A stretch of DNA of 64,000 bases from positions 558,001 to 622,000 of the forward strand of contig NZ_CP030052.1 of the NCBI RefSeq assembly GCF_004114975.1. The letters run 5' to 3'. Shown here in pieces: positions 34,468-38,171 of this stretch; position 1 is the stretch's first letter; every line of letters starts with the position of its first letter. The translations under genes were made by a program, and so were the position numbers. The DNA is from Bradyrhizobium guangdongense (GTDB taxonomy: Bacteria; Pseudomonadota; Alphaproteobacteria; Rhizobiales; Xanthobacteraceae). The notes beneath the pieces were generated by a model that was not told the DNA's origin, did no database searches, and was given only the letters and a program-made list of their open reading frames with translations.

Positions 34468-36498
34468 ATGAATATCTCCGTCCACGCCGAAGCCGACATC
34501 ACGGCAGTCGCGCATAACGATCTCGCCAACGCCGTCCGCTTCCTCGCGGTCGATGCCATCGAGACCGCGCAGTCGGGCCATCCAGGTCTGCCCATGGGTA
34601 TGGCCGATGTCGCGACCGTGCTGTTCTCGCGCTTCCTGAAATTCGACTCGGCGCATCCCAATTGGCCGGACCGCGACCGCTTCGTTCTGTCGGCGGGCCA
34701 CGGCTCGATGCTGCTCTATGCGCTGCTGCACCTGACCGGCGGCGACCTCAGTCTCGATGACATCAAGGCGTTCCGGCAGTGGGGCTCGAAGACGCCGGGC
34801 CATCCCGAATACGGCCACACGCCGGGAGTCGAGACCACGACGGGTCCGCTGGGGCAGGGGATTGCGACCGCGGTCGGCATGGCGCTTGCCGAGCGCATGG
34901 CCAATGCGCGGCATGGCGACGGCCTCGTCGATCACTTCACCTACGTGATCGCGGGCGACGGTTGCCTGATGGAAGGTCTCAGCCAGGAGGCGATCTCGCT
35001 CGCGGGTCATCTCGGGCTCGGCCGTTTGATCGTGCTGTTCGACGACAACGGCATCTCCATCGACGGTCCGACGTCGCTCGCGACATCGGATGATCATCTC
35101 GCGCGCTTCGCGGCCTCCGGCTGGTCGGTGCGCCGTGTCGACGGACACGATCCAGAAGCCGTGGCCCAGGCGATCGCGGAGGAGCGGGAGACCGCCAAGC
35201 CGTCGCTGATCGCGTGCCGCACCATCATTGGTTATGGGGCGCCTGATCGGCAGGGCACCGAGAAGGCGCATGGTGCGCCACTCGGCACCGAGCAGACCGC
35301 GGCGGCGCGCCGCGCGCTCGGTTGGGATTATCAGCCTTTCGTGGTGCCGATCCCGGTGCTCAAGGCGTGGCGGATGATCGGACAGCGCGGGCAGGTCGAG
35401 CGACTCGCCTGGCTCGATCGTTATGAGCGCGCAACGCCCGAGCAGCGCGATTTGTTCGTGGAAGGTAGGGCGGTTGCCCTGCCTGCTGCCTATGTGCTCG
35501 CCGCGGCGAAGTTGCGCGAGCGCTTCGCATCCGAACGGCCGAAGCTGGCGACGCGGCAGGCTTCGCAGCAGGTGCTTGACGGCATCGCCAGCACCATTCC
35601 CGGACTGGTCGGCGGCTCGGCGGATCTGACGCATTCGAACCTGACGCAGGCGAAGGCGCAGACCCCCGTTAAAGCCGGTGCGTTCGCCGGTGGCTACATC
35701 CACTACGGTATCCGCGAGCACGGGATGGCTGCAGCAATGAACGGCCTCGCGCTGCATGGCGGCTTCATTCCCTATGGCGGCACGTTCCTCGCCTTCTCCG
35801 ACTACAGCCGTCCCGCGATCCGGCTCGCAGCGTTGATGCGGCTGCGGGTTATCCACGTGATGACGCACGACTCCATCGGGCTCGGTGAGGACGGCCCGAC
35901 GCATCAGCCGGTCGAACACCTTGCCGCGCTGCGGGTGATCCCGAACTTGCTGGTGTTCCGTCCCGCCGACGCGGTCGAGACGCTGGAGGCTTGGGACTGC
36001 GCACTCGGCTCCGAGCATCGCCCGTCCGTGCTGTGCCTGTCGCGTCAGGCGCTGCCAACTTTCCGCAGCGATGCCCGCGGCAAGAACCGCGTCGCACGCG
36101 GCGCCTATCTCGTCGTCTCGCCCGACGGCGGCCGTGACGTGACGCTGATCGCGACCGGCTCGGAAGTCTCGATTGCGCTGGAAGCAGCCCGCCTGCTCGC
36201 GACCGAGCACATCCGCGCGGCCGTGGTGTCCGCGCCCTGCTTCGCCTTGTTCGAGGAGCAGCCGGACGATTACCGCGCCACCGTGCTCGGCACGGCGCCG
36301 CGCGTCGGCGTCGAGGCAGCGGTTGTCGGCGACTGGCATCGCTGGATCGGTGCCGACGGTGAGTTCGTCGGCATGCGCAGCTTCGGTGCCTCGGCGCCGG
36401 CGCCCGTGCTGTACCGCGAATTCGGCATCACACCGCAGAGCATCGCAGAAGCGGCCAGGCGCTCGGTCGCACGTCGGAACCAGGGAAGAACAGCATGA
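34468..36498 (+). CDS. cbbT: Transketolase
   Basis: A 676-aa full-length transketolase: thiamine-diphosphate motif [13 protein letters not shown] ... [10 protein letters not shown], the [16 protein letters not shown] and substrate-binding HGAPLGTEQ regions, and the C-terminal pyrimidine domain with [11 protein letters not shown] and [19 protein letters not shown]. It performs two-carbon transfers of the Calvin cycle. Its stop codon overlaps the ATG (36495) of the fused gene downstream, showing that the beginning of the cbbG part is in its original place. Confidence 0.96.
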
Positions 36499-38171
36499 GC
36501 TTGCGTGTCGCCATCAACGGATTTGGCCGGATCGGTCGCAACGTGCTGCGTGCGATCGCCGAGTCCCGCCGCAACGACATCGAGGTGGTCGCGATCAACG
36601 ACCTCGGTCCGGTCGAGACCAATGCGCATCTGCTGCGCTTCGACTCGGTCCACGGCCGCTTTCCCGGCGAAGTCAAGGTCGACGGCGATACGATCGACGT
36701 CGGCGGCGGCCCGATCAAGGTGACCGCGATCAAGGACCCGGCGCAGCTGCCGCATCGTGCGCTCGGTGTCGATATCGCCCTGGAATGCACCGGTCTGTTC
36801 ACCTCGCGTGAGAAAGCCGCCGCACATATCCAGGCCGGTGCCAAGCGCGTGCTGGTCTCGGCGCCGGCAAGCGAGGTCGATCTCACCGTCGTGTTCGGCG
36901 TCAATCATCTCGCCCTGACCGGCGATCACATCGTGGTCTCCAACGCCTCGTGCTCGACCAACTGCCTCGCGCCGCTCGCTCAGGTGCTGGACGACGCCGT
37001 CGGGATCGAGAAGGGGTTCATGACCACGATCCACTCCTACACCGGCGACCAGCCGACGCTCGATACGTTCCACAAGGACCTCTATCGCGCCCGCGCCGCG
37101 GCGCTGAAGGCGCTGCGGCTCGAGGACATGCGGCTGCCGGTCGCCTATGTGAAGACGTTCCAGGGGCCGGCCACCGGCATCGTGGTCGAGCGCGAGCGGC
37201 TCGACAAGTTCGGCCGGCCGCTGCTCGGCGCCACCATCAAGCCGAAGCTCGGCCTCTCGGGCCGCAATTACGGCCGCGTGGTCTATGAGGCGCTGAAGGG
37301 CGGGCTCGACTTCACCAAGGACGACGAGAACATCAACTCGCAGCCCTTCATGCACTGGCGCGACCGCTTCCTCTACTGCATGGAAGGCGTCAACCGCGCG
37401 CAGGCGGCGTCGGGCGAGGTGAAGGGCACCTATCTCAACATCACGGCCGCGACCATGGAGGACATGTACGAGCGTGCGGAGTTCGCCAAGGAGCTCGGCT
37501 CGGTCGTGGTCATGATCGACCTCGTGATCGGCTACACCGCGATCCAGTCGATGGCGAAATGGGCGCGCCGCAACGACATGATCCTGCATCTGCACCGCGC
37601 CGGTCACTCGACCTATACGCGCCAGAAGAGCCATGGCGTGTCGTTCCGCGTCATCGCCAAATGGATGCGGCTCGCCGGAGTCGATCACATCCACGCCGGC
37701 ACGGTCGTCGGCAAGCTCGAGGGCGATCCCAACACCACGCGCGGCTATTACGACATCTGCCGCGACGACTTCAACCCGATGAAGCTCGAGCACGGCGTGT
37801 TCTTCGACCAGAGCTGGGCGAGCCTGAATAAGCTAATGCCAGTGGCTTCCGGCGGCATCCATGCCGGCCAGATGCACCAGCTGCTCGACCTGCTCGGCGA
37901 GGACGTCGTGCTGCAGTTCGGCGGCGGGACCATCGGCCACCCCATGGGTATCCAGGCCGGGGCGACCGCCAACCGGGTGGCGCTGGAAGCGATGATCCTC
38001 GCTCGCAACGAGGGACGTGACTACGTTCACGAAGGCCCAGAGATCCTGGCCAAGGCCGCAGCGACCTGCACGCCGCTGAAGGCCGCGCTGGAGACCTGGA
38101 AAGACGTCACTTTCAACTATCAATCCACCGACACGCCGGACTTCGTGCCGACGGCGCTCGCCGCTGTCTAA
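36495..38171 (+). CDS. In-frame fusion: GAPDH N-terminal part joined to RuBisCO large-subunit C-terminal part
   Basis: One 558-codon frame encodes two enzymes' parts. Residues 1-203 are glyceraldehyde-3-phosphate dehydrogenase: [13 protein letters not shown], the catalytic [11 protein letters not shown] (C153) and [11 protein letters not shown]. Residues 205-558 are form IC RuBisCO large subunit from [12 protein letters not shown] onward, with TIKPKLGL, the carbamylated-lysine site [18 protein letters not shown] and loop 6 VVGKLEG. Missing are the rest of the dehydrogenase and about 130 RuBisCO N-terminal residues that supply active-site residues (spinach E60, T65, W66, N123). The junction is at GCGCTG, 37101-37106. 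Neither activity is expected. cbbA, often located between these genes, is absent. Confidence 0.93.

Follow-up and report, generated by a model that had tools for sequence, protein, structure and literature searches.

The window analyzed here is a 64,000-nucleotide stretch of DNA, comprising bases 558001 to 622000 of C2, a 981,946-bp plasmid contig in a Bradyrhizobium genome of two contigs. It carries a Calvin cycle (cbb) operon (Table 1) in which a single frame of 558 codons, with an ATG start and no internal stop codons, begins as glyceraldehyde-3-phosphate dehydrogenase (GAPDH, CbbG) and ends as the RuBisCO large subunit (CbbL). A first-pass annotation of this DNA had read a continuous GAPDH-to-RuBisCO frame, which the ORF list and the Pfam domains confirm. 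It had also taken the other operon genes to be intact, and these (including those for phosphoribulokinase, CbbS, CbbX, and CbbE) are indeed open in the ORF list. The LysR-type regulator next to cbbF is probably CbbR, a name that we base on its position. A scan of positions 36400 to 38700 found no promoter-like site and two terminator-like sites, at 38564 to 38675 (0.9 expected), beside and after cbbS. Elsewhere in the window, about 20 kb downstream, adjacent genes for a transketolase and a transketolase family protein (59848 to 61706) represent a second plasmid transketolase, and a cluster with a nickel-dependent hydrogenase and hyp maturation genes (RefSeq names) occupies positions 1 to 15128, with the cbb operon about 17 kb downstream of it. 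The plasmid thus holds an H2 oxidation region and a Calvin cycle region, the latter with its RuBisCO broken.

Table 1. Features of the plasmid cbb operon, in window coordinates
Feature	Coordinates	Strand	Basis and remarks
LysR-type regulator	31428..32294	-	Divergent from cbbF; Pfam LysR_substrate and HTH_1; RefSeq LysR family transcriptional regulator
cbbF, fructose-bisphosphatase	32526..33563	+	ORF; RefSeq class 1 fructose-bisphosphatase
cbbP, phosphoribulokinase	33576..34451	+	ORF; RefSeq
cbbT, transketolase	34468..36498	+	ORF; RefSeq tkt; stop codon overlaps the fusion's start codon (ATGA)
cbbG'::cbbL' chimeric frame, 558 aa	36495..38171	+	ORF, Pfam
cbbG 5' part	36495..37106	+	GAPDH residues 1-204; 99% amino acid identity to L027 cbbG; 3doc alignment; motif positions
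CGCTG at the join	37102..37106	+	Common to both parents provided that cbbL came from a CCGCTG-type parent; overlapping blastn pieces (L027, L028)
cbbL 3' part	37107..38171	+	CbbL residues 133-486: complete C-terminal barrel domain, without the N-terminal domain
cbbS, RuBisCO small subunit	38184..38591	+	ORF; RefSeq
cbbX, red-type RuBisCO activase	38696..39646	+	Pfam AAA and AAA_lid_6; RefSeq cbbX
cbbE/rpe, ribulose-phosphate 3-epimerase	39637..40326	+	Pfam Ribul_P_3_epim; RefSeq rpe, with its start there at 39644

The chimera consists of CbbG residues 1 to 204 followed by CbbL residues 133 to 486 (numbering at the join is that of the related locus L027). On the GAPDH side, the NAD-binding domain is present (Gp_dh_N, PF00044, at chimera residues 4 to 104, 124.9 bits) and the catalytic domain is incomplete, with Gp_dh_C (PF02800) matching at residues 158 to 204 over profile positions 1 to 48 of 158 only. 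Against the GAPDH of PDB entry 3doc, chimera residues 1 to 204 align one to one, with cysteine 153 of the SNASC motif and histidine 180 of the TTIHS motif retained, and residues 205 to 335 (L027 numbering) are absent. On the RuBisCO side, the barrel domain is complete (RuBisCO_large, PF00016, at residues 228 to 535, profile positions 1 to 299 of 299, 446.8 bits), and the C-terminal part aligns gap free to residues 136 to 488 of the large subunit in PDB entry 25hn. RuBisCO_large_N (PF02788), the N-terminal domain expected of a form I RuBisCO, is not among the Pfam matches of the chimera; where the large subunits of 25hn, 1bxn, and 5nv3, which we take to be red type (form IC/ID), have their first 132 residues (L027 numbering), the chimera has GAPDH residues 1 to 204. 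The N-terminal domain of RuBisCO completes the active site of the neighboring subunit, and the residues that it gives to its partner lie before CbbL residue 133 and are gone. Both losses named in the first-pass annotation, of the N-terminal RuBisCO domain and of the end of the GAPDH catalytic domain, are therefore upheld by the Pfam matches. A functional cbb operon holds an intact cbbL together with cbbS; here, cbbS is open and cbbL is truncated and fused.

In the PLSDB gene tables of the two records that we inspected, no coding sequence is listed at the fusion, and the locus tags skip one step. In NZ_CP030058.1, a plasmid of B. guangdongense CCBAU 51658 (source, peanut nodule), the skipped step sits between XH86_RS38990 and XH86_RS39000. 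The absent coding sequence and the skipped step suggest that RefSeq marks the fusion as a pseudogene.

The search for intact copies elsewhere in the genome that had been proposed at the outset was carried out. The sole PF02788 match of the window's genome is on the other contig, C1, which also carries a complete operon of the order cbbF-P-T-A-L-S-X-E (L030 in genome G000), as does C1 of two further genomes, G060 (L057) and G085 (L058). In each of the five fusion-bearing genomes examined, PF02788 matches once, in an open frame, and Gp_dh_C matches once over its full length, neither of them ever on the fusion contig; G520 and G000 yield two additional Gp_dh_C hits, which are partial and fall below the cutoff. 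The loss of autotrophy once predicted from the broken gene need not follow, given the complete operon on C1, and CO2 fixation need not be lost, since a RuBisCO N-terminal domain in an open frame occurs elsewhere in all five genomes. The RuBisCO large subunit is thus lost from the plasmid operon but not from the cell. For this reason, a dead chimera is the simplest account of the fusion.

We read the operon in 45 loci, including the window, which are best matches of our own choosing and not a random sample. Three carry the fusion (the window, L055, and L056), 33 have the order F-P-T-A-L-S-X-E, and four (L027, L028, L059, and L072, from genomes G029, G007, G071, and G067, respectively) have F-P-T-G-A-L-S-X-E; the rest are one locus cut by a contig end and four outgroups of other families. 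As a component of the Bradyrhizobium cbb operon, cbbG is optional, being found between cbbT and cbbA in 4 of 37 intact same-genus loci. The four cbbG-carrying operons agree with the window in gene order and directions, and the overlap of cbbT with cbbG is shared by L027, L059, and L072 but not by L028. Compared with these four, the operon of the window has no cbbA, and the 3' end of cbbG and the 5' end of cbbL are missing as well; the segment between the joined points measures 1,945 to 1,949 bases (1,948 in L027, 1,945 in L028, and 1,949 in both L059 and L072). This is the missing segment that the first-pass annotation had proposed, with cbbA then named only as probable. At the DNA level, the cbbG part is 93.5% identical to L027 versus 85.5% to L028, although the cbbG genes available for comparison are few. 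As expected of a chimeric pseudogene, two known genes are joined in place, and both are intact in relatives of the same order.

The join itself differs in detail from what had been supposed. The hexamer GCGCTG (37101 to 37106) was expected in both parents, but the blastn alignments to L027 and L028 have only 37102 to 37106 (CGCTG) in common, and the expected CbbL motif KALKAL reads KPLKAL in the ten relatives compared. In five of these ten, cbbL has CCGCTG at the join, giving five shared bases, and in four it has CCGCTC, giving four; L029, the nearest relative in the cbbL part (cbbL'), has CCCTTG, giving two. The parents would accordingly have shared up to five bases, the count depending on the type of the cbbL parent. 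Runs of at least five shared bases occur at 0.9% of 100,000 random cbbG/cbbL joins within L027, and the chance of an in-frame join is one in three. Genes are known to become joined at short repeats.

The two sides of the join appear to differ in their ancestry. In a tree of cbbF, cbbP, and cbbT, the window falls inside a 15-row Bradyrhizobium clade with support of 100/99.9. When the window was held in this clade, approximately unbiased (AU) tests rejected it for cbbL' (P = 1.6e-4), for cbbS-X-E (P = 3.7e-4), and for both together (P = 1.7e-6); the clade without the window (14 rows) was not rejected for S-X-E (P = 0.23) or L'-S-X-E (P = 0.18). It was weakly rejected for cbbL' (P = 0.038), hinting that cbbL may have some history of its own, with recombination of this gene within the genus. 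These tests used 38 rows, and their P values are somewhat too sharp because the clade was named after the trees had been seen. The trees omitted L032 (a partial operon) and L077 and L078 (no cbbT match), the plasmid copies L055 and L056 were left out of both the quick trees and the AU tests, and the outgroups L075 and L076 were left out of the AU tests. In the quick trees, the sister of the window differs by gene: L029 for cbbL' (support, 95) and L063 for S-X-E (46).

Informative sites were counted gene by gene to place the switch in ancestry. Patterns resembling the left-half clade predominate in cbbF (12 of 12), cbbP (8 of 9), and cbbT (14 of 18), and patterns resembling other lineages predominate in cbbX (12 of 13) and cbbE (4 of 7). 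The sites in cbbL' are too few to judge (one left-like and two other-like), and those in cbbS (three of four left-like) run contrary to a mosaic reading. In the cbbG part, 48 of 68 sites are L027-like, a weak sign given that L027 has the only cbbG of the left-half clade. Immediately to the right of the join, the bases agree with those of lineages not in that clade, for example L072 (CTGAAGGC..CGGCTCGAG), and not with L027, L065, L060, or L031 (CTCAAGG). Taken together, these comparisons make it likely that the operon is a mosaic whose halves have different ancestries, and the switch would lie near the join or inside the lost segment. Among the matches listed, and plasmid copies aside, no right-half donor matches over its full length at more than 82% in 197 genomes or at more than 84% in 391 genomes, which partly overlap the 197; short pieces reach 87% for cbbS and 89% for cbbL'. 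For cbbS-cbbX-cbbE (38184 to 40326) in particular, the matches listed from the 197 genomes include none that is full length and above 82% outside the plasmid family, so that this set would lack the donor lineage, and identity to the six relatives compared is 77 to 84%.

We consider it very probable that the frame is a dead, in-frame cbbG'::cbbL' chimera in an accessory operon, with intact enzymes elsewhere in the genome and with halves of different ancestry. On this explanation, two places with a few bases in common would have become joined in an accessory cbb operon, which type II bradyrhizobia from peanut carry on a symbiosis plasmid, and cbbA would have been lost together with the end of cbbG and the start of cbbL. 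The product would be the NAD-binding part of GAPDH joined in frame to the barrel domain of RuBisCO and would be enzymatically dead; the flanking cbbF, cbbP, cbbT, cbbS, cbbX, and cbbE are open and may still be expressed, and RuBisCO and GAPDH would be supplied by the intact copies elsewhere. Two divergent cbb operons may have undergone a single illegitimate crossover, or else a mosaic operon may have existed first and then suffered a deletion. Because the operon looks mosaic, recombination across distinct cbb operons accounts for the join no less well than would the deletion of a segment from a single one.

The second of these orders is a serious candidate, which we hold at somewhat below an even chance; being part of the preferred explanation, it overlaps with it in probability. 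Homologous recombination would first have produced a mosaic operon with its switch within cbbG 3'-cbbA-cbbL 5', and this segment would then have been deleted. Because the missing ca. 1.95 kb makes up roughly one quarter of the operon, a switch hidden there is not improbable, and the AU tests fit this order equally well. However, it needs two events where one crossover suffices, and an intact mosaic intermediate was not found among the matches listed from the 197 and 391 genomes.

The first-pass annotation had proposed a simple deletion in cis, within one colinear F-P-T-G-A-L-S-X-E operon, and its account of the missing segment stands; it is incomplete in that the apparently differing ancestry of the halves is left unexplained by a deletion alone. 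To retain it, that difference would have to be a tree artifact of fast evolution in the right half, which we think unlikely. The gene order of the four cbbG-carrying relatives fits a simple deletion, and the long branch of the window for S-X-E (0.24, versus a median of 0.077) makes its placement less certain. The weak rejection for cbbL' even without the window also fits, as cbbL may recombine within the genus anyway, as does the left-half leaning of the cbbS sites. Against it, the S-X-E and L'-S-X-E data tolerate the clade without the window and reject it with the window, and the bases right of the join resemble lineages outside the left-half clade. Furthermore, the divergence of the window in cbbX is mostly synonymous (dN/dS, 0.08), unlike relaxed decay, and relaxed selection is not favored as the explanation for the long branch in the right half.

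Identical or nearly identical copies of the fusion occur in other records. Six PLSDB plasmid records match over 2801 bases, five at 100.0% and B. guangxiense p53363 at 99.9%. An exact 40-mer across the join is present in 14 of 102 loci examined, including those of G060, G085, G520, and G521, several of the 14 being the window's own genome counted again; it is also present in one genome collection contig, NZ_JAKLUA010000009.1, from the draft of B. zhengyangense WYCCWR 12774. The 1677-base frame is identical in 10 of 11 copies, and L054 differs by T70C (S24P); among the 11, L053 is probably the window's own plasmid, and some may be one strain under two names. That several strains have the fusion in common fits the statement, in part of the text of the B. 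guangxiense paper (PMC13429744), that type II strains all share an identical symbiotic plasmid.

The frame carries few marks of decay. Among columns of cbbL' conserved at 97% or more in CbbL proteins, 1 of 248 is changed in the chimera (leave-one-out median, 1; highest, 10); this count used 118 of the 120 best-hit proteins, excluding P0001 and P0104. Such slight decay of the RuBisCO part is compatible with a pseudogene of recent origin, and also with a chimera under selection. Across seven genes or parts (cbbG excluded), dN/dS between the window and eleven relatives is low, at 0.03 to 0.15. The dN of cbbL' to five clade-A loci is 0.034, about double the A-B value of 0.018, and that of cbbS is also raised, which may be a weak sign of relaxation. 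Judged from its sequence, the frame is most probably a chimeric pseudogene of recent origin, without activity.

It is very improbable, in our estimation, that the chimera is instead functional, with an NAD-binding module on a RuBisCO barrel that would coassemble with CbbS/CbbL or bind CbbX and so modulate the other RuBisCO of the cell. The frame is open, its residues are conserved, and several peanut bradyrhizobia carry it. According to a portion of one report (PMC3130060), loss of cbbL1 in Bradyrhizobium ORS278 lowered symbiotic nitrogenase activity by 30 to 50% and doubled nodule number, so interference of this kind could have a symbiotic effect. However, both parents are without large parts of their domains, and the conservation could be explained by youth and by the shared plasmid described in the excerpt from PMC13429744. 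In addition, the pairing of GAPDH with RuBisCO forms a single cluster (P0001, six members) among the best 120 of 8000 scored proteins. An apparent second fusion in that set, P0104 (605 aa), runs from the end of cbbA through unrelated residues into a CbbL that seems whole, and from the protein sequence we read it as ORF read-through. No evidence was found for the bifunctional or regulatory protein that had been entertained earlier. Finally, an assembly collapse, named in the first-pass annotation as what could overturn the fusion, is very unlikely and receives next to no weight from us, as judged from the assemblies: several of these were submitted separately, and six plasmid records as well as a distinct draft genome contain the same join.

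In the literature on Bradyrhizobium plasmids, cbbL, and RuBisCO fusions, no GAPDH-RuBisCO (cbbG-cbbL) fusion is reported in the titles or abstract openings listed, and a term search of the main texts of PMC7324677 and PMC13429744 found mention of neither cbb nor RuBisCO. The fusion is a natural chimera of two Calvin cycle enzymes, joined in frame on a symbiosis plasmid of several Bradyrhizobium species. One speculative possibility, to which we assign only a slight chance, is that the chimera is made and mixes with intact RuBisCO, plasmid CbbS, or CbbX, thereby dampening or redox-tuning CO2 fixation in the nodule; if so, a core enzyme would be under the influence of a dominant modifier encoded on a plasmid. 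The presence of a RuBisCO gene on this plasmid, as scored by cbbL amplicons or C-domain matches, is no proof of function. The fusion also offers a clean case for asking whether chimeric RuBisCO barrels poison the assembly of the intact enzyme.
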